Shown here: positions 16,665 to 29,331 of the stretch, in pieces
How the letters are laid out: each line of letters starts with the position of its first letter
How positions within the stretch are numbered: position 1 is the stretch's first letter
Assembly: GCF_007752535.1 (NCBI RefSeq)
Contig: NZ_CP036426.1
Coordinates: 7,192,001-7,256,000, forward strand
Source of the DNA: Tautonia plasticadhaerens
GTDB lineage: Bacteria; Planctomycetota; Planctomycetia; Isosphaerales; Isosphaeraceae
Reading direction: 5' to 3'
DNA: 64,000 nucleotides
Made by a program: the position numbers and the translations under genes
The notes under the pieces: model-generated
The model's database searches: none
Told to the model about the DNA's origin: nothing
The model's input: the letters and a program-made list of their open reading frames with translations, nothing else

Positions 16665-17159
16665 TCAGCCCCCCGGCCAGTGCGCCGTCGCCCACTGGCC
16701 GAAGTTCTCCTCGACCATCACCCGCATCGACCCCGGCACCGCCAGCCCCCGGTCGGCCAGCGCCCCCCGGAGCCGGTCCCCCAGGTATTCGGCGATCCGC
16801 TCCGTCGTCGTGTTCGAGACCGGCAACACCACGCACTCGTCCTTGGGGAAACTCCAGTATCGGTCCCGGTAGCGGCAGACGAGATTCGACCCCTCCTCCG
16901 ACACCGCGATGTGCGGGTTCCGGGCCGGCAGGAGCATCCGGTGGTCCAGCTCCAGCACCAGCGCCCGGGTCAGGTCCCGCAGGGCGATGAAGTCGAAGAC
17001 ATATTCGTTCTCGTCCAGGGGACCGTCGACCTCCACCGCCACCCGCCAGTTGTGGCCGTGGATCCGCTCGCACTCGTCGCCGTTGAAGGTGATGAAGTGA
17101 CCGGCGCTGAAGACGAGGTCGTCCTTGGTCACCCGGACGGTGTATCGGTTCGCATCCAT
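16665..17159 (-). CDS. 6-pyruvoyl-tetrahydropterin synthase/QueD family protein
   Basis: A 164-residue protein with the zinc-site histidines of the family (His21 in FSAGHF, His34 and His36 in RIHGHNW) and a Cys at residue 30 four positions before the HGH, the location of the catalytic Cys. The C-terminal VSNTTTERIAEYLGDRL stretch is also typical. The family acts on dihydroneopterin triphosphate, giving tetrahydrobiopterin precursor or 6-carboxytetrahydropterin. Here it is the last gene of the mch–ATP-grasp–CitG-like run, so a role in pterin supply to H4MPT is attractive but unproven; queuosine synthesis is the alternative. The ATG at 17159 was preferred to 17210 because similarity begins there. 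Confidence 0.82.
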   Translation of the reverse strand: MDANRYTVRVTKDDLVFSAGHFITFNGDECERIHGHNWRVAVEVDGPLDENEYVFDFIALRDLTRALVLELDHRMLLPARNPHIAVSEEGSNLVCRYRDRYWSFPKDECVVLPVSNTTTERIAEYLGDRLRGALADRGLAVPGSMRVMVEENFGQWATAHWPGG

Positions 17160-17225
17160 AATCGATCGATCGTTCGTTCTTCGATGGCGTGATCGGGCGA
17201 AGTTCGGCACGCCTCGGGGCCGAGG

Positions 17226-18119
17226 TCAGAGCCGGTCCCCCGCGTCCCAGCCCTCCCCGGAGAGGTGCCGGGGGAACTCGATTGTCCCGTCGCAGAGGGC
17301 GGCGTACAAGGTCGCCGCGATCAGGTCGGCCGTCGCCCCGGGGTTCCTCGCGTGGCCGTCGGCCCGGAGCCATTCGTCGAACTCCCGGATCGCCTCGACC
17401 GACCCCGGGCCGTCCGGCCACCCCGAGGCCAGCACCCCGGCCGCCCTCCGGGCCGACTCCCGCGCAACCGCCTCGCCGCGCTTCCGGGCGATCAGCGTGT
17501 CCGGCCGCCCGGCCATCAGCGTCAGATGCGTCAGCACGATGGCCGCCTCCAGCGGCCGACCGGCCCGCAGGGCGTCCCCCAACGTCGGCAGGGCGAGGTC
17601 GAACACGTCGGCGTAACCCGTCGCGTACTGTCGGGCGATCGCGTCCCGGTCGGCGGCCAACCCCATCGCCTCCCGCAGCGTGACGGTCGGCTCGTCGGCC
17701 ACGTCCTGCTCCGGGGCCTCGCCCAGCCCCCCGGGCCGGGCGAGGCGGATCGCCTCGTAGACGGCGACGGTATCGGCGACCGAGAGGCGATCGAGGATCC
17801 GCGCCAGTCCCTCCCGGAGCCGACGGCGGACCCGGACCCCTGCCATCGGCGTCAGCAGCAGGATCATGCCGAGGTTCGTATTGTGCCCCACCAGCCCCCT
17901 CGTCTCCCGGACGGCCCGGAGCACGACCCCGCCGACCCCGAAGCCCCGCACCAGCTTCGGGTCCAGGTGCCTCGCCAGCACCGAGGCGCTGACGGCGAAG
18001 TCCAGGAATCCTGCGTCCGCAAACCCCCGGCACCGATGCACGTTCCCGGGCTTCCTCGCCGTCGCCTCCAGCAGGCAGGCGAGCTGGGCAAGGTCCCGGT
18101 GCCCGAGCCCGTCGCTCAC
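17226..18119 (-). CDS. CitG-like triphosphoribosyl-dephospho-CoA synthase family protein (C1-cluster type)
   Basis: A 297-residue helical protein of the COG1767 family. Recognisable motifs are EATARKPGNVHR (residues about 18–29), VGHNTNLGMILLLTP, and HLTLMAGRPDTLIARKRGE. True CitG makes the citrate-lyase prosthetic-group precursor from ATP and dephospho-CoA. No citrate lyase genes are present here, and homologues of this form regularly sit next to mch in bacteria with H4MPT, where they are thought to act in cofactor synthesis. It overlaps the upstream ATP-grasp gene by 4 nt (ATGA). The specific reaction in C1-cofactor synthesis is inferred from context. Confidence 0.82.
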   Translation of the reverse strand: MSDGLGHRDLAQLACLLEATARKPGNVHRCRGFADAGFLDFAVSASVLARHLDPKLVRGFGVGGVVLRAVRETRGLVGHNTNLGMILLLTPMAGVRVRRRLREGLARILDRLSVADTVAVYEAIRLARPGGLGEAPEQDVADEPTVTLREAMGLAADRDAIARQYATGYADVFDLALPTLGDALRAGRPLEAAIVLTHLTLMAGRPDTLIARKRGEAVARESARRAAGVLASGWPDGPGSVEAIREFDEWLRADGHARNPGATADLIAATLYAALCDGTIEFPRHLSGEGWDAGDRL

Positions 18120-19012
18120 GATCGCGCCCCCCCCTTCGCCGACTCCTCCAGGATCGCCGCCGCCACGTCCACCCCCGTCTCCCTCGACAGGGCCCGCCAG
18201 CCGGGCACGGCGTTTACCTCCAGCACCACCAGCCTCCCCGAGTCCTCGTCCGGCAGGAGGTCCACGCCCGCCATCCTCGCCCCCACGGCCTCGGCCGCCC
18301 GGATCGCCAGCCGCTGGGCCTCGTCATCGAGCGTCACCGCCTCGGCCCGGCCGCCGACGGCCACGTTCGCCCGCCACTCCCCCTCGCGGGCCGTCCTCCG
18401 GATGGCGCCGATCACCCGGCCCCCCAGCACGAACGCCCGGAAATCGCGGCCCACATTGCTTACGTGACGCTGGACGTACAGGACCGAGCCGATCCGCTCG
18501 ATCGCACGTAAGGCCCGGCTTGCGAGTTCGGTGTCACTCACGCGCACCAATCCCCGGCCCTCGGCGCCGAATAACGGCTTGATGACCACGTCCCCCCCCA
18601 GGGCGTGGAAGGCCTCCATCGCCTCCCGGGCCGACTCCCCGACCCAGGTCTCCGGCACCGGGAGCCCCTCCCCGGCCAGTTTCGCCAGCGCCAGGTACTT
18701 GTCCACCGCCGCCTCGACCGCCCTCGGGGGATTCAGGACGGGCACCCCCATCGCCTCCAGCCGGTGCAGGGCGTCCATCCGGAAGATCACCTGCTCCAGC
18801 GACCCCGGCGGCATCATCCGGACGAGCACCCCGTCGACCGCTCCCAGGTCGATCCCCCCCGCCTCAACCCGGGATGCGCCGCCCCCCACCCGCCCGACCA
18901 CCCTCGGGAACGGGACCGCGTCGAGCCGACATCCCACCAGCCGGGACGCCCGGATCAGATCCTGCACGTGCCAGCCGTTGCCGGAAACCAGGGCCACCAG
19001 GTGCGACGCCAT
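18116..19012 (-). CDS. RimK-like ATP-grasp ligase of the H4MPT/methanofuran cluster
   Basis: A 298-residue ATP-grasp protein. Motifs include DKYLALAKLAGEGLPVPETW, GGDVVIKPLFGAEGRGLVRV (phosphate-binding loop and Lys), YVQRHV and VDLLPDEDSGRLVVLEVNAVPGW with the metal-binding Glu/Asn near the end. The RimK group joins amino acids, often glutamate, to a carboxylate. Archaeal relatives are MptN (glutamate to H4MPT) and the tyramine–glutamate ligase MfnD. Here it follows mch by 7 nt and overlaps the CitG-like gene, so a glutamate ligase for H4MPT or the bacterial methylofuran is likely. Which of the two cannot be decided from sequence. Confidence 0.85.
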   Translation of the reverse strand: MASHLVALVSGNGWHVQDLIRASRLVGCRLDAVPFPRVVGRVGGGASRVEAGGIDLGAVDGVLVRMMPPGSLEQVIFRMDALHRLEAMGVPVLNPPRAVEAAVDKYLALAKLAGEGLPVPETWVGESAREAMEAFHALGGDVVIKPLFGAEGRGLVRVSDTELASRALRAIERIGSVLYVQRHVSNVGRDFRAFVLGGRVIGAIRRTAREGEWRANVAVGGRAEAVTLDDEAQRLAIRAAEAVGARMAGVDLLPDEDSGRLVVLEVNAVPGWRALSRETGVDVAAAILEESAKGGARS

Positions 19013-19019
19013 CGGCCCC

Positions 19020-19976
19020 TCAAGCCTCGCCCGAGAGGCCGAACGAACGGGCCAGCACCCCCGGCTCGACCCGGCCGAAGGCGAACGTATTCCCCGTCTC
19101 GACGTTCCGGAAGACGACCTCGGCCGGGCTGAACAGGTGCGGGTCGACCGCGTAGAAGTCGTGGTTGTACCGGGCGAAGACGGCCGCGAACGGTTCGCCG
19201 TGGTCCCTCGACGACGACGACGGCACCATCGGCCCGACCTCCTCCAGGCTGGCGTCGTCCCCGGTCACGTCCAGCACCACCCTCGCCCCGTAGAGGATCG
19301 CGTCGTTGGTCCGGCCGATCGCCGCCAGGTCGTCCCCCGCCACCGGGGGCAGCGGCGCCGACCCGAACGCCGAGACGATCCGCCCGAGATCGAACCCCTG
19401 CTCGTGCAGCTTGTGCAGCCCCGTCTCCACCGACCGGGCCACCACCTGCACCCCCCCCGCCAGGCTCGCCGTCGGCGCGACCAGCAGCGTCACCGCCGAG
19501 GGGGCCACCCGGCACGATTCGGCCACCATCGCCACCACCTCGGGCCCCGGGATCGCCCTCCCTTCGAGCACCCCCACCACCGCCGAGGCCTCCTCCCGGA
19601 AGCCGATGTCATGAAATACCTTCTCCGTCCCCGACGCCGCCCGCATCGGCCCCGACCCCATGGCGAAGAAATCCCCCTTCGCCAGTTGCCACCCCGCATA
19701 CTGGCTCGCCAGGCAAGACGCCACCGCATGATCCGTGGCCACCTGCACCGAAGGGCAGCCCCTCCCCCCGACCTCCCCCGGCACCAGCCCGATCTCCGCC
19801 AGATCCGCCATGCAGATCCGGGCCAGTTCCAGCCCAGCCAGCACCCCCCCCCGGGACTCGACCCCGCAATCGACCACCCGTCCGCCCCCCGCCACCTCGA
19901 CGACCCGGACCCGACGTTCCTCGACCCGGGAGATCAGCGTTTCGACCAGTCGGGCGGCTCGATCGTTGAGATTCAT
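19020..19976 (-). CDS. mch: Methenyltetrahydromethanopterin cyclohydrolase
   Basis: A 318-residue protein matching Mch along its whole length. Typical parts are MNLNDRAARLVETLI, DCGVESRGGVLAGLELARICMADL, VQVATDHAVASCLASQYAGW, FFAMGSGPMRA and GRTNDAILYGARV. It hydrolyses methenyl-H4MPT to formyl-H4MPT in the cytoplasm, a central step of H4MPT-linked formaldehyde oxidation in methylotrophs and of the C1 pathway of planctomycetes. It is the first gene of a tight minus-strand run with the ATP-grasp ligase, CitG-like protein and PTPS-family protein. The upstream 312 bases carry a low-G+C stretch with the promoter of the divergent DUF1559 gene. Confidence 0.95.
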   Translation of the reverse strand: MNLNDRAARLVETLISRVEERRVRVVEVAGGGRVVDCGVESRGGVLAGLELARICMADLAEIGLVPGEVGGRGCPSVQVATDHAVASCLASQYAGWQLAKGDFFAMGSGPMRAASGTEKVFHDIGFREEASAVVGVLEGRAIPGPEVVAMVAESCRVAPSAVTLLVAPTASLAGGVQVVARSVETGLHKLHEQGFDLGRIVSAFGSAPLPPVAGDDLAAIGRTNDAILYGARVVLDVTGDDASLEEVGPMVPSSSSRDHGEPFAAVFARYNHDFYAVDPHLFSPAEVVFRNVETGNTFAFGRVEPGVLARSFGLSGEA

Positions 19977-20289: not shown

Positions 20290-21222
20290 ATGGCAATGCT
20301 GGAGCGACTGCCTAGAAAGGGCCTGACCCTCGTTGAGTTGCTGGTAGTGGTTTCGATCATCTCAATTCTGATCGCTCTTGTGATCCCAGCTGTAATCGCT
20401 GCCCGAGGCATGGCAAGGAAGGCTACTTGCTCGTCGAACATGCGCCAGATTGGGATTGCATTGGGCGGATACGAATCCAACTACAATATATTCCCCGCCG
20501 GCCAAAATGGCAAAGGCTACTCATTCCTAGTGAGCATTCTTCCTTACATTGAAATGAAACAAATTTATTCATCTATAAATTTCGAATTGGGCAGTTATGA
20601 GAACGCGCACCAGACTGTACGCGCTGTCAGCATCGGCATTTTTGGGTGCCCCTCGGATTCGGAGCGAGCCCCAAACTACACGAGCTATGCGGGTAGCGAA
20701 GGTGACGGCAATGCAAGAAAAATGAACGGAATCTTTCTTCAAGGTTATCCATATCCACTACAAGTAGGCTACGCGACGATCAAAGATGGCTCCAGCAATA
20801 CCGCAAGCATGTCGGAGTGGGTCGTGGGAGTAATCAATGAGAACCGAAAATTAGCCGACATTCACTCCTACGACGGAAGCCGATCCGACCCTACGCCTTT
20901 GGAACAATTCGAGCAGGACTGCATCTCGATCGGTGGAGGAATGAAAGCGACAACAAATGGGCAACAAAAAGGGTGCGCATGGACAGACGGCGTATCCCCA
21001 AGCACAACTTACCAGCACGTTTTAGGGCCAAACAAGCCGAGTTGCATCAACTCGATAGGCTCGGATTATCCGATGGCGATTACTGTCGGCAGCTACCACC
21101 CTGGGGGCATTAATCTCCTGCTAGCTGACGGCCATGTTTCATTTATTAAAGATTCCATAAATTTGTCCGTTTGGCGAGCCAAAGGGACTCGTGACGGGGG
21201 AGAGGTGATGGGTGCGGAGTGA
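20290..21222 (+). CDS. DUF1559 type IV pilin-like protein
   Basis: A 310-residue protein with a class III-type prepilin N-terminus: Lys10-Gly11 followed by LTLVELLVVVSIISILIALVIPAV, with the conserved Glu at +5 (Glu16). It should be processed by a prepilin peptidase. The DUF1559 domain follows, with CSSNMRQIGIALGGYESN, a CPSD segment, SMSEW, and the terminal H-x9-DG-type motif INLLLADGHVSFIKDSI. DUF1559 proteins are strongly expanded in planctomycetes and are thought to be pseudopilins or surface components. Base composition is near 50% G+C, unlike flanking C1 genes. A short secreted-protein gene, interrupted by a stop codon, follows 92 nt later. Confidence 0.93.
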   Translation: MAMLERLPRKGLTLVELLVVVSIISILIALVIPAVIAARGMARKATCSSNMRQIGIALGGYESNYNIFPAGQNGKGYSFLVSILPYIEMKQIYSSINFELGSYENAHQTVRAVSIGIFGCPSDSERAPNYTSYAGSEGDGNARKMNGIFLQGYPYPLQVGYATIKDGSSNTASMSEWVVGVINENRKLADIHSYDGSRSDPTPLEQFEQDCISIGGGMKATTNGQQKGCAWTDGVSPSTTYQHVLGPNKPSCINSIGSDYPMAITVGSYHPGGINLLLADGHVSFIKDSINLSVWRAKGTRDGGEVMGAE

Positions 21223-21921: not shown

Positions 21922-22746
21922 TCACCCTGCCGCCGGGAACAGGATCTCCCCCCGCCCGCCTTCGAGCCGGTCCCCGTTGTACCGCTCGAACCGTCCTCCT
22001 TCCAGGCCCGGCGAGGCCGGGAAGCCTCGCGTCCGAAGCTCCTTCAGGTAGAGGGCCAGGAACGGGAACCGGAAGGCGCCGGCCTGGGCGAAGGTCGGCG
22101 AGGGCTCGAAGCCGGGGCCGGGGTCGAACAGGGCGAGCGTGCCGCGCTTCATGCCCGCGCCGGCCAGCAGGCCGACGGGGCCGAAGGCGAAGATCGACCC
22201 GGCGATCATCCCCCGGCCGAGTCCGTCCCCCGACGCCCCGCCGACGGCGATCAGGCCCCGTCGCATCGCCAGGCCGGCGTCCCGGCCGACCGCGCCGTCG
22301 ACCAGGATCATCCCGTCCCGCATCCCCTTGCGGCTGCCGGGCAGGGCCGAGCCCAGGGCGTCCCCGGCCGACCCGAGGATCCGGATCAGGCCCCCCGACA
22401 TCTCCGCGCCGACCCAGCTCGACGCCGACCCGGTCAGCTCGATCGACCCGCCCGACATCCCGGCCCCCAGGCGAGGCCCGGCGTCCCCCCGGACCGTCAA
22501 CCGTCCCGAGGCCATCCCCTCCCCGATCCCCCGGACGTGCGACAGGTCCCCCTCCAGGACGAGATGCCCGTCGGACCCGTCCCCCTCGATCCGGAACAGG
22601 TCGCCGATCGCGACCGCCTCCCGACCGACCCTCGCCGGCATCACCGACACGTCCGAAGGCGAGCACCCGCACATCCGGTCGGGCCGGAGCACCCCCGACT
22701 CGACCGGCAGGCTCGTCGACGAGGTCCATCGGAGGGTGAGGGGCAT
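21922..22746 (-). CDS. fhcC: Formyltransferase/hydrolase complex subunit C (formylmethanofuran dehydrogenase subunit C family)
   Basis: A 274-residue protein of the FwdC/FmdC/FhcC family. The middle is a repetitive beta-helix with the usual glycine pattern: GHLVLEGDLSHVRGIGEGMASGRLTVRGDAG, GAGMSGGSIELTGSAS, GAEMSGGLIRILGSAG, and KGMRDGMILVDGAVGRDAGLAMRRG. In bacteria FhcC belongs to the FhcABCD complex that moves the formyl group from formyl-H4MPT to the methanofuran analogue and hydrolyses it to formate. FhcA, B and D are not found beside it, so this is an isolated subunit gene. The ATG at 22746 starts the conserved sequence (MPLTLRW) and has GAGGA upstream; the longer ORF to 22875 is low-complexity. 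Confidence 0.88.
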   Translation of the reverse strand: MPLTLRWTSSTSLPVESGVLRPDRMCGCSPSDVSVMPARVGREAVAIGDLFRIEGDGSDGHLVLEGDLSHVRGIGEGMASGRLTVRGDAGPRLGAGMSGGSIELTGSASSWVGAEMSGGLIRILGSAGDALGSALPGSRKGMRDGMILVDGAVGRDAGLAMRRGLIAVGGASGDGLGRGMIAGSIFAFGPVGLLAGAGMKRGTLALFDPGPGFEPSPTFAQAGAFRFPFLALYLKELRTRGFPASPGLEGGRFERYNGDRLEGGRGEILFPAAG

Positions 22747-22924
22747 GAACGCGATCGTCCTCGGTGCGCCTGCTCGTCTCCGGGCACGCCCAGCTCGGCC
22801 CCGGGCCGAGCCGGTTCGAGGCCCCCACGATAGCCGCGTCGGCCCCGACGGGCAACGCCCGCCGCCCCCGGGCATGCCGTTGGATGTTGGCGACGATTCG
22901 ATCGGCGACCGATCGTCCGATCGG

Positions 22925-23075
22925 ACCCTCTCCCCCGTCCGCGGGGGAGAGGGTGGCCGGAGGCCGGGTGAGGGGGCTCGGGCGATCCGCGTGGCCCGGC
23001 GAAGGATCGAGGACCCCTCACCCCAACCCTCTCCCCGAGGACGGGGAGAGGGGGCCGGAGGCCGACCCTCTCCCC
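22925..23075. repeat. Cluster of CCCTCTCCCC palindromic units (BIME/REP-like)
   Basis: Unit one, 22925–22954, is a perfect 13 bp stem (ACCCTCTCCCCCG / CGGGGGAGAGGGT) with a four-base loop. Unit two, 23027–23052, is an 11 bp stem (CCCTCTCCCCG / CGGGGAGAGGG), loop AGGA. The two are in inverted orientation: GTGAGGGG after unit one is complementary to CCCCTCAC before unit two, and GGCCGGAGGCC follows both. A partial third copy starts at about 23065. This family of GC-rich palindromes is scattered between genes in many bacteria; it may form RNA hairpins. Confidence 0.75.
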
Positions 23076-23572
23076 CGCACGCAGAGGAGCGGGTGGGCGA
23101 AGCCCGAGTTTGGGGGACTCCCGACGCCCCGACCCGCCGAACGGCCGGGGCCAGCCAACTTCCGAAGGCTCGCCCCGCCCTCCCGCTCGGGGCGATCGGA
23201 TTGTGTGACTGAAACCGGCCCGTCCCACGATGATATTGCAGAGGGGGATTCGTGCCGGCCTCCCGAGCTCGCGCTGCGCCGAGGTCCCCGATGCGATCCG
23301 CCCCCCCGATCCCCGAGCCGATTCCCCCCGAACCGCCGGGCGATCGTCCCCCGTCCGTCCCCTCGTCCGGGACGGCTCGGACTCGTCACGATCGGGTGGC
23401 TGGGTGCCGAGTCGCGGATCCCAGGCGACGGCTCCCGGGACTGGGGGCCGCTGCTCGGCCCCCAGCCACCCCCCGCCGAAGGGCCGAGAGCAGCTTGGCC
23501 CTCGCCCCGGACCTGAGGACCCGGCCGTCGATCCCCGAGTGGTCCGCCGTCGGCGACGCCGTCCCCTCGCCG

Positions 23573-23880
23573 CGCGAAAACGAACCCAACGACGGCCCGG
23601 CCGATCGACGGACCGAACCCATTTCGTTCCCCGCCAACCCGCATCAAGCCCTTCACGAATCCCAACTTACGTCAGCCAAACCGGGACCGCTATTCAGCGC
23701 ACCGACCGGCGCACCGGCCCCGATCCGGCCCACCTCGCCCGCCCCGAATCCACGCAGGGCATTAACGCCCCGGAGGCGCAAAAATGAACCCAACGCCGGT
23801 CGGGACGGTTCGACCGAGCGAAGCCATTTCCGACCCCAGGACTCCATCACAACCCGAATCACAAAAGGGACTTTCGCCAA
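23573..23880. repeat. Two diverged copies of an intergenic repeat
   Basis: Copy A begins at about 23575 and copy B at about 23778. Both read AAAAYGAACCCAACGMCGG, then a variable stretch with CGACSGASCGAA, then CCATTTC. Read as protein both copies give an ENEPN/KNEPN…TE motif, so they create similar false ORFs. Sequences of this type recur between genes in planctomycete genomes, as I recall; copy number here cannot be tested from one window. Confidence 0.5.
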
Positions 23881-24014
23881 GACGCCCGAGGCGCACCGCA
23901 AGCGCACCGACCGCCTCCCGGCCGGGTCGACGCCGCCGGGCGACGGTCGAAGGGCCTGGTCTGACCGTCGTCCCGGGGGGCGAGCGCTCGGGGTCGGGGA
24001 GGTCGGGCCGGGGC

Positions 24015-25625
24015 TCAGGGCAGGACGGCGCCGAGCTGGTCCTCCGGGACCGGCTCGATCAGCTCGACCGAGGCGCCGGCCCGGGAGGCCCGGGTCCAGA
24101 AGGCCCGGGAGGGTCGGAGCTGGAAGCGGTCGCGGAGGTCGGCGAGCAGGGCCGATCGGCGGTCCTCGGGGCCGTCGTCGAAGCCGTAAATGGCCGGCCC
24201 CCAGGAACTCTGGCCGACGCCGTGCAGGCCGCGATCGGCCAGGAACCGGGCCACCTCCTCGACCTCCGGCCCGGCGAAGATCCCCCCACCCTGGGCCGGG
24301 GCGAACCAGCGGCCGACCTGCTCCTGGATCTCGACCAGGGCGGCGCCGAAGGCGGGGAGGTCCCGGTCGGCGGCGGCGGGCAGGAGCCCGAGGAGGACGA
24401 GGCGGCAGAGGCGGTCGGTGACGGGCTCGGGCATCGGGGGGAGGTCCCGGAAGGCGGCGCGTTCGGCCTCGCCGTGCAGGCCGGCGGGGGCGTTCGGGAT
24501 GGCGACGAGCACCGACCAGGACTCGGGGAGGTGGGCGTGGGCGATCAGCGGGGGGACCGACCCGGGGGCCCGGTGGCCGCCGTCGACGACCAGGCCGCCG
24601 TGCCGGAAGCCGAGGATGCCGACCCCGGAGCGTCCCCCCCGGCCGGTCAGGGCGGCGAGCCGGTCGACCGGCAGGTCCCCCTTGCCGTTGACCAGGGTGA
24701 TCGCCCGGGCGATCGCCAGCCCGAGCTGGGTCCCGGTGCCCAGCCCGACGTGCTCCGCCGGCCCCCGTTCCAGGTGGAGGTGGGTCGCCATCGCCCGGGC
24801 CCGGTCCATCTTCCGGGCGAGCTGGAAGAGGACCCGGGAGGCGAAGTCCGACGCCCGGGGCCGGAGGTTCATCAGCCCGGTCACCCCCCAGTCGTCGGCC
24901 CGCTGGGCCCGGAGGGTGATCCCCGGATCCTCGACCATCAGGCCGACCCCGCCGAACCGCCGGCCCGCCTCCGGCCCCCAGGCGAGCGGCCCGAAGTGCA
25001 GTCGGCTGGGGGTCCGGACCCGGACGGCCGCCGGGGCCTCGCCGGGGATCGCCAATCCCCGGGACCGGGCGACCCGCCGGACGTGGGAGCGGAGCAGGGC
25101 GAACGCCTCGGCCTCCTCCGGCCCGGCGGTCTTCTCGACGAGCACGGCGAGGCGGTCGTACTGCTCCAGGATCTCGGGGATCGGGAGGAAGTCGAGCCGG
25201 GTGGCGAGGATCGCCGCCTCGACCACCGCGTGCTTGGCCCGGTTCAGGCCGAAGAAGTCCCGGAGCCTCCCCGAGGCGACCGCCTCGCAGCGGATCGTCG
25301 TCCGGTCCCCCGAGTCGTCCAGCTCGACCACCCGGAACTCCGCGTACCGGCAGGCCGAGGTCAGGATCCGGCCGTGCACCACGTCGGCGGGCCGGGTCGG
25401 GGCGTCCTCGATCCGGCCGATCGCCCCCCGGGCGATCGTCAGCACGTCGTCGGTGACGTGCAGGACCCCCTCCCCCAGGGCCTTCAGGTTCCGATACGTG
25501 GTCGACGAGGTGTACGGCCGGAGGACGAACCGGGCCAGTTCGGCCGACTCGACCACCGGCCCCATCGGCGCGACGTTCAAAAGCCCGTCCGGGCCGACCG
25601 TGGTGACGATGCCTTCGAGGATCAC
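24015..25625 (-). CDS. DUF447 domain fused to beta-ribofuranosylaminobenzene 5'-phosphate synthase
   Basis: A 536-residue fusion. Residues 1 to about 190 form a DUF447 domain, a flavin-reductase-like split barrel (MILEGIVTTVGPDGLLNVAPMGP … LRPYTSSTTYRNLKALGEGVLHVTDD). Residues about 200–536 match beta-RFAP synthase, a GHMP-kinase-fold enzyme (VRTPSRLHFGPL, FGGVGLMVEDPG, GPAEHVGLGTGTQLGLAIA, SSWGPAIYGF). Beta-RFAP synthase joins PRPP and p-aminobenzoate (or a derivative) with CO2 and PPi release, the first committed step to H4MPT. DUF447 proteins often neighbour these genes, with no proven reaction. The stop of the upstream DHPS-like gene overlaps this ATG (ATGA), so both are co-translated. 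Confidence 0.9.
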   Translation of the reverse strand: MILEGIVTTVGPDGLLNVAPMGPVVESAELARFVLRPYTSSTTYRNLKALGEGVLHVTDDVLTIARGAIGRIEDAPTRPADVVHGRILTSACRYAEFRVVELDDSGDRTTIRCEAVASGRLRDFFGLNRAKHAVVEAAILATRLDFLPIPEILEQYDRLAVLVEKTAGPEEAEAFALLRSHVRRVARSRGLAIPGEAPAAVRVRTPSRLHFGPLAWGPEAGRRFGGVGLMVEDPGITLRAQRADDWGVTGLMNLRPRASDFASRVLFQLARKMDRARAMATHLHLERGPAEHVGLGTGTQLGLAIARAITLVNGKGDLPVDRLAALTGRGGRSGVGILGFRHGGLVVDGGHRAPGSVPPLIAHAHLPESWSVLVAIPNAPAGLHGEAERAAFRDLPPMPEPVTDRLCRLVLLGLLPAAADRDLPAFGAALVEIQEQVGRWFAPAQGGGIFAGPEVEEVARFLADRGLHGVGQSSWGPAIYGFDDGPEDRRSALLADLRDRFQLRPSRAFWTRASRAGASVELIEPVPEDQLGAVLP

Positions 25626-27064
25626 GCCCCGGCCTCCCCCGATCCGCCCTCGGGACGGCCCCGGTGCTGCCGGCGCTCCCGCTTCCGGCGCTCGACGGCG
25701 CCGACCTCGGGCTCGGTGAGGTACCCCCAGTCGAGGGCCTGGTCCTGCCGGTAGTGCTTGTCCAGGGTCAGGGCCGTCCGGGCCTTGGCCAGCTCGTAGC
25801 CGAGGTAGAAGGCGTGCTCCGGGTCGGCCACCCCCATGCGGTCGAACAGGGCGAAGGGGTCGGCGTCGGCCAGGAAGTGCTGGTGGTTCAAGGCGTAGAT
25901 CACCCCATCCTCGGCGAAGATCCGCCAGTTCGGGTCCCGGATCCGACGCTGGAGTTCCTCCAGGGTGTCCCGGCCGAAGCGGGGGACCTTCGGATCCCGG
26001 AGCGTCACCAGGCCCGGCTCCAGGTGCTTCGGCAGGGTCCGGTTCGTCACCGCATGATAGGACAGCCGGCGGGCCAGGTCGATCTCCCGGACCGACGACC
26101 GGGCCCAGTTGATGACCGCCGTCGTCAGCACGCTGCCCACCCCGACCTCCTGGCAGACGCCGATCAGGGCGACGTTCATCCCGGCCGAGTCCACGTCGGT
26201 CAGCTCCGTCAGGTTCCCGACCCCCATCATCATCGCCGAATCAGGATACCGGCGCCTCACCTCCAGGTACCGGCCCAGCGAGGCGGCGAAGCCGAAGCCG
26301 ATCGGCTCCAGGATCGGGTCGATCCGGAACGGGATGCCGTGCTTCGAGAGGGACTCGACCGACGCGTCCAGCCCTTCGAGCGTGCCGACCCGGTCGGGGA
26401 TGACCACGACCTCGGCCCCCCAGTCCCCGGCCCGATCCCGGTTCGAGCCGTCGACGCTCAGGACGAGGTCCGCCCCCGCCTCGACCGCCCGAGCGACCTC
26501 GACCGGGTCGAAGCTGTCGACCGAGACGCGGTGGCCCCGCTCCCGGAGGGCGACGACCGCCTCGGCCACCCCGGGCCAGGGGCCGCCTGGGTCGCAACCG
26601 AGGTCGATCCGGTCGGCCCCCTCGGCGGCGAAGCGGTCGGCCTGGGAGAGCAGTTGGTCGAGGGGCAGGGTCGGGGCGTGGTTGATCTCGGCCAGGATCT
26701 CGATGTCGAAGGCGCCATAGCCCTCGGCGTCCGGGGAGTCGAGTCCGAAGGACCGGGGGAGGTCGCGGAGGTCGTCCGGCCCGCGTTCGACCGGGACGCC
26801 CCCGGCCTTCTCGACCACCGGTGCGAGGTCCCCCTTGCACATCCCGGGCAGGATGACGCGGTCGACTCCCGGGGGGACCTCCAGGTGCCGGGCGATCCAG
26901 GGGGTCGGCATCAGGGCGGCGACGGTGATCGGCAGGACCGCGACCTCGGCCTCGACGCCGGCCCGGGGCGCCAGGTCGTCGAGCACCTGGCGGAGGGCGA
27001 ACTCGGCGAGCCGTCCGGTGATGAACAGGAGGCGAGGTCGGGGGCAAGGGCGGTCGTTCGGCAT
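25622..27064 (-). CDS. Dihydropteroate synthase-like protein of H4MPT synthesis (DUF6513/archaeal type)
   Basis: A 480-residue protein. The N-terminal 150 residues (LLFITGRLAEFALRQVLDDL … VLPITVAALMPTPWI … VILPGMCKGDLAPV) form a domain specific to this group. The middle is a TIM barrel of the dihydropteroate-synthase class: GADRIDLGCDPGGPWPGV, HRVSVDSFDPVEVARAVEAGADLVLSVDGSN, DPILEPIGFGF, and MMGVGNLTELTDVDSAGMN. Homologues occur in methanogens and H4MPT-using bacteria, where they are proposed to condense a pterin with the beta-RFA moiety. It is the first gene of the pair with the DUF447–beta-RFAPS fusion (4 nt overlap), which strongly supports this role. Confidence 0.88.
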   Translation of the reverse strand: MPNDRPCPRPRLLFITGRLAEFALRQVLDDLAPRAGVEAEVAVLPITVAALMPTPWIARHLEVPPGVDRVILPGMCKGDLAPVVEKAGGVPVERGPDDLRDLPRSFGLDSPDAEGYGAFDIEILAEINHAPTLPLDQLLSQADRFAAEGADRIDLGCDPGGPWPGVAEAVVALRERGHRVSVDSFDPVEVARAVEAGADLVLSVDGSNRDRAGDWGAEVVVIPDRVGTLEGLDASVESLSKHGIPFRIDPILEPIGFGFAASLGRYLEVRRRYPDSAMMMGVGNLTELTDVDSAGMNVALIGVCQEVGVGSVLTTAVINWARSSVREIDLARRLSYHAVTNRTLPKHLEPGLVTLRDPKVPRFGRDTLEELQRRIRDPNWRIFAEDGVIYALNHQHFLADADPFALFDRMGVADPEHAFYLGYELAKARTALTLDKHYRQDQALDWGYLTEPEVGAVERRKRERRQHRGRPEGGSGEAGA

Positions 27065-28566: not shown

Positions 28567-29331
28567 TCATCGGATCGCCCCGCCGTTGACCCGGACGACC
28601 TGCCCGGTCAGGAACGAGGCGCCGGGCCCGACCAGGAACCGGACCACCTCGGCCACGTCCTGCGGGGTGCCCCATCGGCCCATCGGGGCCTCGGAGACGG
28701 CCCGACGCTGCCAGTCGTCGGACGCCTTCTCGCCCCAGGAGGTCTTGATCCATCCGGGGGCGAGGCAGTTGACCCGGACCTCGGGGGCGAGGCCCAGCGC
28801 GAGGCTCTTCGAGAAGCCCATCACCGCCCCCTTCGTGGCGGCGAACAGCTCCCCGGAGTCCCCCTCCATCCCCGTCTCGGCCTGGTCCCAGCCCATCGTC
28901 AGGATCACGCCGCGGCCCTGCTGCTTCATCCGCCGGCCGACCCGCCGGCAGAGGCGCATGGCGGCCACCACGTCGACGGCCCAGAGCAGGTCGAGCTTGG
29001 CGTCGAAGTCGAGCCGGGAGGCGTCGCCGGTCAGAGTGTCGGCCCCGGCGACCTGCACCCAGGCGTCGAGCCCGCCCCAGGTCGCCCACGCCTCGTCGAC
29101 CAGCCGGTCCCCCGCGTCCCGGTCGGCCAGGTCGGCCATGAGCACGGCGGCCCGGCCGACGCCGAGATGCCGGCACTCGTCGGCGACGGCCTCGGCCTGC
29201 TCCCGGGAGCGCCGGCCGTGGACGATCACGTCGGCCCCCGATCGGGCCAGGGCGATCGCCGAGGCCCGGCCGATCCCGGAGGTCGAGCCGAGCACGATGG
29301 CGCGGAGGCCCTGGAGTTCGGCGGGAGGCAT
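28567..29331 (-). CDS. SDR-fold protein lacking the canonical catalytic Tyr
   Basis: A 254-residue short-chain-dehydrogenase fold. The cofactor motif GSTSGIG (residues 15–21) is intact, and the C-terminal LVGPGASFLTGQVVRVNGG is standard. At the active site the YxxxK motif reads Phe163-A-A-T-Lys167 (codon TTC), and the region that normally supplies the catalytic Ser reads LTMGWDQAETG. The NNAG motif is QVAGA. So Ser and Tyr are both missing while Lys stays. It may be a non-catalytic NAD(P)-binding protein or use another acid. It lies between the pectate lyase-like gene (14 nt apart) and a nitrilase. Confidence 0.85.
   Translation of the reverse strand: MPPAELQGLRAIVLGSTSGIGRASAIALARSGADVIVHGRRSREQAEAVADECRHLGVGRAAVLMADLADRDAGDRLVDEAWATWGGLDAWVQVAGADTLTGDASRLDFDAKLDLLWAVDVVAAMRLCRRVGRRMKQQGRGVILTMGWDQAETGMEGDSGELFAATKGAVMGFSKSLALGLAPEVRVNCLAPGWIKTSWGEKASDDWQRRAVSEAPMGRWGTPQDVAEVVRFLVGPGASFLTGQVVRVNGGAIR

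Follow-up and report, generated by a model that had tools for sequence, protein, structure and literature searches.

A DUF447–beta-RFAP synthase fusion in a predicted tetrahydromethanopterin biosynthesis cluster of Tautonia

The 64,000-nucleotide stretch of the Tautonia plasticadhaerens genome analysed here (the window) encodes a DUF447 domain and a beta-RFAP synthase (RFAPS)-type domain in one gene. Homology and gene context support well the prediction that the product is a two-domain protein of tetrahydromethanopterin (H4MPT) biosynthesis, whose N-terminal half would be an FMN-binding domain of that pathway. The parts of the Tautonia fusion are known; their architecture is new and recurrent. 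H4MPT carries one-carbon units in methanogens, many methylotrophs and some planctomycetes. Several of its biosynthetic steps lack an assigned enzyme, and by a 2011 estimate seven proteins of its synthesis were still unknown (PMC3087415). Being joined to an enzyme whose reaction is established helps to place DUF447 in the pathway, though not to define its reaction, and provides one protein in which ideas on DUF447 are testable. If the ring-opening role proposed below is true, C-ribosylation and reductive ring opening are united in one Tautonia polypeptide.

The fusion gene and its two halves

The gene lies on the minus strand of a 9.4-Mb genome and encodes 536 amino acids with no internal stop (Table 1). 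The initial annotation had claimed a single uninterrupted frame for both domains; its coordinates and open frame are right, with the gene read from the minus strand. Long plus-strand open reading frames over the locus (e.g. 23784-25754) were rejected as genes, being shadow frames of GC-rich DNA.

Table 1. Features of the fusion gene and its surroundings (positions in the window)
Feature	Position	Strand	Remarks
DUF447–RFAPS fusion gene	24015..25625	-	GTG start 25625, TGA stop 24015; 536 aa; AlphaFold model from a 95-row alignment, mean pLDDT 94.9, pTM 0.83
DUF447 part, residues 1-189	25059..25625	-	PF04289 at residues 4-119, PF20766 at 128-179
Interdomain linker, about residues 188-199	25029..25064	-	stop/start overlap of unfused relatives gone
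Beta-RFAP synthase-type GHMP-fold domain, residues 199-527	24045..25031	-	profile matches, conserved residues, ForT fold match
DUF6513 + dihydropteroate synthase (DHPS)-like gene	25622..27064	-	TIGR00284 below its cut-off
SDR-family oxidoreductase	28567..29331	-	adjoins the DHPS-like gene in other planctomycetes
Stretch between fusion and fhcC	22876..24014		about 1.1 kb; no confident gene; GACCCTCTCCCCC-type direct and inverted repeats
fhcC, formyltransferase/hydrolase complex subunit C	21922..22875	-	TIGR03122; true start probably nearer 22728
DUF1559/prepilin-type gene	20290..21222	+	opposite strand, between fhcC and mch
mch, methenyl-H4MPT cyclohydrolase	19020..19976	-	TIGR03120
MptN/RimK-like ATP-grasp ligase	18116..19012	-
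CitG-family protein	17226..18119	-	PF01874; regular H4MPT-cluster member
6-pyruvoyl-tetrahydropterin synthase (PTPS) family protein	16665..17210	-

Profile searches bear out the naming of both halves. DUF447_N (E 5.9e-18, 65.3 bits against a gathering cut-off of 24) and DUF447_C (E 7.4e-14, 52 bits against 24.8) both score above threshold. Among PDB sequences, residues 1-190 match the DUF447 protein of Rhodopirellula baltica (3b5m, E 1e-38), and in the predicted model this half superposes on 3b5m over 187 residues (Z 25.6, rmsd 1.7). Near-invariant DUF447 residues are retained, N128, R129, A133, E136, R143, K165 and T166 among them. Archaeal DUF447 members bind FMN: the FMN-bound structures 2nr4 (TM 0.83) and 2iml match the DUF447 half, and 2ptf does so more weakly. 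By analogy, going by the titles of these three homologue structures, the Tautonia domain is a putative FMN-binding domain. A literature search found no activity or assigned reaction for any DUF447 protein. A suggested cannula role (PMC13140500) is an annotation guess that finds no support in this analysis. At an E-value of 0.001 the fusion has no match to TIGR02700, PF02441 or PF00186, a result at the level of profiles that is mute on convergent activity.

The C-terminal half matches the NCBIfam family TIGR00144 (beta_RFAP_syn) at residues 202-517 with 150.7 bits, above the cut-off of 113.5. The equivalog NF040726 matches residues 202-518 with 176.7 bits; this is under its curated cut-off of 328, so the half is not filed under that family. 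ForT matches residues 198-520 in the PDB sequence search (E 4e-17), and the predicted model of this half has the ForT fold (Z 34.8-35.5). Residues kept from the RFAPS family include R208, H210, R222, H292-x-G-x-G-x-G-T-Q, R329, R332-S333, E388 and Q472-x-S-W-G-P. R26 of MTH0830 is the arginine required for p-aminobenzoate binding (PMC6787355). R222 of the fusion is conserved in 85 of 88 sequences and lies in an N-terminal motif matching the R26 region, in an alignment that does not include MTH0830 itself. Homology and context support well the prediction that this half would join PRPP to p-aminobenzoate to give beta-RFAP, with loss of CO2. One Tautonia genome holds a second, divergent RFAP synthase-like stretch outside the cluster (G285:C2:286939-287649, minus strand; 30% identity to residues 200-430).

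A predicted H4MPT cluster around the fusion

Judged by its neighbours (Table 1), the fusion is a predicted member of an H4MPT cluster. The stop codon of the DUF6513/DHPS-like gene overlaps the GTG start of the fusion (GTGA). T. sociabilis has a tighter cluster; that of the window is opened up by spacers of about 1.1 kb ahead of fhcC and about 2 kb ahead of mch. The repeat-bearing stretch between the fusion and fhcC is absent from T. sociabilis, where mch directly follows fhcC. The SDR gene could be a candidate planctomycete dihydromethanopterin (pterin) reductase; an SDR gene also stands beside the DHPS-like gene, often with pabA and DUF447, in L085, L101, L103, L107, L125, L134 and L135.

The fusion among its unfused relatives

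A frame error in other strains had been named as what might undo the fusion. All four Tautonia genomes searched, the source genome together with T. sociabilis L061 (= G287), G286 and G285, carry it. In the three further genomes it is likewise open throughout, at 76-79% protein identity to that of the window, and this agreement rules out a frame or assembly error. Across the four genomes the linker varies in length by whole codons only. Both halves are under purifying selection, with dN/dS of about 0.16-0.38 among the Tautonia fusions and values mostly below 0.6 in the linker. None of the four has an ATG at the junction and the GTG and TTG codons there are not conserved, which argues against an internal RFAPS start.

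In 37 other genomes of the order with a match, the two domains nearly always belong to separate genes, and in a few of these genomes, which are incomplete, one domain alone is seen; in other complete Isosphaeraceae they are nearly always two separate adjacent genes. The initial annotation had described the domains as normally separate neighbours, and they prove to be rightly named, usually adjacent and part of one pathway. Across the whole set, 44 of 46 abutting separate pairs share an ATGA/GTGA overlap between DUF447 stop and RFAPS start, an overlap that is absent in Tautonia. G048 and G069, where a single match spans both halves, were set aside as fusions: an in-frame TAG separates two genes.

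These overlaps bear on how much the fusion can prove. Since pairs that already overlap need about one indel to fuse, the fusion adds modest weight only. The claim that it is strong functional evidence was overstated in its degree; the functional link between DUF447 and RFAPS itself is supported, chiefly by the layout of the operon, by co-occurrence and by the phyletic pattern. The fusion adds to this link and does not establish it, nor does it tell chemistry on a shared metabolite apart from co-expression or scaffolding. In the extreme case, overlapping co-translated genes would simply have lost a stop codon, with stoichiometry fixed or nothing gained and no metabolite shared. This neutral or expression-level origin is a real possibility, though on balance a doubtful one. 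The short mutational distance speaks for it, as does the occurrence of DUF447 elsewhere away from RFAPS, beside pabA or the DHPS-like gene. It sits less well with a fusion that arose repeatedly and has been kept genus-wide with frame-preserving linker changes; moreover, the DHPS-like gene overlaps DUF447 too, yet no such fusion was noticed at the loci inspected.

Fused genes make up 9 of 88 DUF447/RFAPS pairs: the four of Tautonia, L064 and L065 (two independent assemblies of a freshwater Gemmataceae-like lineage), and the single metagenome-assembled genomes (MAGs) L003, L006 and L071, each of which could still be an assembly error. On the joint tree the fused label needs five changes, of which well-supported branches force four or more; by their well-supported branches, the DUF447 tree alone forces two and the RFAPS tree alone three. 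In an AU test on 27 of the 88 pairs, from which the long-branch L071 was left out, holding Tautonia together with L064/L065 was rejected (p-AU 4e-60), and so was holding all eight remaining fused pairs together. On that set a single origin of all fusions is rejected. Given these tree changes and rejections, the fusion has formed independently at least twice: in Tautonia and in L064/L065. Elsewhere, a Phyllobacterium zundukense gene annotated as (5-formylfuran-3-yl)methyl phosphate synthase (L148:10250-11422) encodes 390 aa, against about 245 aa in L142 and L147, and is perhaps another fusion of cofactor-synthesis genes.

Co-occurrence and gene neighbourhoods of DUF447

Among 246 planctomycete genomes searched, all 22 with a clear match to either family have both. 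In 14 control genomes both families match in the same four archaea. One control genome with the pair is Haloferax volcanii. Haloferax reportedly relies on folate, and its RFAPS homologue was judged not isofunctional (PMC8305020); its possession of both families is a warning that together they may also contribute to some other product.

In many planctomycetes DUF447 lies beside pabA, away from RFAPS, and in G133 a pabA-like gene adjoins the fusion itself. This proximity is what an upstream role for DUF447, in making the aromatic substrate of RFAPS (p-aminobenzoate or p-hydroxybenzoate), would predict. Such a role is nevertheless very improbable: PabA, PabB and PabC make p-aminobenzoate by a route that is complete without DUF447, methanogens, whose arylamine comes from a different route, have DUF447 as well, and proteobacterial DUF447 clusters have no annotated pabA nearby.

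On proteobacterial plasmids DUF447 directly follows the DUF6513 gene and is usually followed in turn by MfnB. In Thiodictyon, Azoarcus and Phyllobacterium the DUF6513–DUF447 pair has a flavoprotein gene ahead of it; that of Thiodictyon resembles the dihydromethanopterin reductase family TIGR02700, below cut-off, and the other two are flavoproteins by annotation. Azospirillum has the DUF6513-DUF447-MfnB order with no flavoprotein gene, and a RibD_C-type "dihydrofolate reductase family" gene about 12 kb off. The gene order orf19-orf20-afpA-orf21-orf22 of methylotrophs (PMC3615186) matches these arrangements and suggests that DUF447 may correspond to orf19.

These neighbourhoods bear on a second redox reading, in which DUF447 would be the FMN-dependent dihydromethanopterin reductase of the last step (H2MPT to H4MPT), filling the place of the DmrA and DmrB absent from planctomycetes. 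Afp is reported as unrecognised in planctomycetes, and DmrA is its named substitute in Methylobacterium (PMC5020050). The flavoproteins of the Tautonia genome are UbiX and CoaBC only, accompanied by one folate-type DHFR, and relatives of DUF447 bind FMN. Against this stand the shared operon of DUF447 with a DmrB-like flavoprotein in Thiodictyon, the annotated flavoproteins beside it in Azoarcus and Phyllobacterium, and an SDR gene beside the DHPS-like gene as another candidate. M. jannaschii and Methanosarcina also have DUF447, and presumably DmrX/MJ0208 as well. This reading is unlikely, and final H2MPT reduction alone is probably not the general role of DUF447. Within Tautonia it could be, since no DmrB-like gene is recognisable in the genome.

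A proposed ring-opening role for DUF447

Because DUF447 is kept in clusters with a DmrB/DmrX-like flavoprotein, it probably serves another redox step. Reportedly, the redox step that remains in White's pathway after RFAP synthase is the reduction of the ribofuranosyl group to 1-deoxyribitol. To our knowledge, the reductase that opens this ring in methanopterin synthesis is unassigned. We therefore favour, tentatively and as the best of several uncertain explanations, a role of DUF447 as an FMN reductase converting the ribofuranosyl ring into the open-chain ribitol of H4MPT. The fuller claim, that it is the missing FMN-dependent ring-opening reductase leading to 1-deoxyribitol and that the fusion performs C-ribosylation and reductive opening in one polypeptide, is more speculative still. 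Counted in support of ring opening are the genus-fixed, recurrent fusion, the H4MPT cluster, the co-occurrence of the two families and the FMN-bound homologues.

In the proposed mechanism, DUF447 would carry out a two-electron reduction of the C-glycoside made by the RFAPS half to the open-chain 1-deoxyribitol of H4MPT, either on RFAP or once RFAP has been coupled to the pterin. Expulsion of the ring oxygen by the para-amino group would yield an aza-quinone methide, which would then receive a hydride at C1' from reduced FMN. Such a transfer is chemically reasonable because the arylamine carries a para-amino group. Fusion would hold the reductase beside the enzyme that makes the C-glycoside. 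In the classical pathway the reduction follows condensation and dephosphorylation, so the substrate of DUF447 need not be the product of RFAPS.

According to the passages of PMC3261824 that cite White 2011, methanopterin contains a ribitol moiety, and a phenol is reportedly the starting point of the arylamine in archaea. Both organisms with pabA and archaea that, on this account, use the phenol route have DUF447, which favours a step downstream of RFAPS. In many planctomycetes DUF447 lies by pabA, and in proteobacteria by MfnB, a DmrB-like flavoprotein and the DHPS-like gene, so that action on RFAP is no more likely than action at a later step; the H4MPT pathway step concerned cannot be picked out from gene context. 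The initial proposal that DUF447 acts on the substrate or product of RFAPS points the right way but goes too far: a shared pathway is supported, and the fusion fits scaffolding or matched stoichiometry as well as it fits a shared metabolite.

Comparison with known systems

The solved DUF447 proteins (3b5m; MM1853, 2nr4; the AF protein 2iml; MTH_863, 2ptf) share the whole domain, its fold and its conserved motifs with the fusion. They are free-standing chains of about 200-230 aa, whereas the Tautonia DUF447 is joined to an RFAP synthase-type domain. The beta-RFAP synthase family (TIGR00144; MptG) and ForT (6yqq, 8aoz), which we take to serve formycin/pyrazofurin-type C-nucleosides, have the GHMP-like fold, the PRPP-loop and other conserved residues in common with the fusion; the beta-RFAP synthase family also shares its H4MPT gene context. 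The fusion differs from TIGR00144, MptG and ForT in its additional N-terminal DUF447 and in an NF040726 score below cut-off. Unfused DUF447 and RFAPS genes of Isosphaeraceae have the order and strand of the fusion and are ATGA-coupled, yielding two proteins rather than one. The dihydromethanopterin reductases DmrB, AfpA and DmrX catalyse an FMN-linked H4MPT step and occur in the same proteobacterial operons as DUF447, but belong to a different family (PF02441/TIGR02700).

A fusion of comparable logic involves BluB, an enzyme that uses FMN. The BluB/CobT2 fusion of Propionibacterium freudenreichii (PMC4657239) joins an FMN-using enzyme to a phosphoribosyltransferase-type partner within one cofactor pathway; the likeness to the Tautonia fusion is one of analogy, between unrelated families and pathways.
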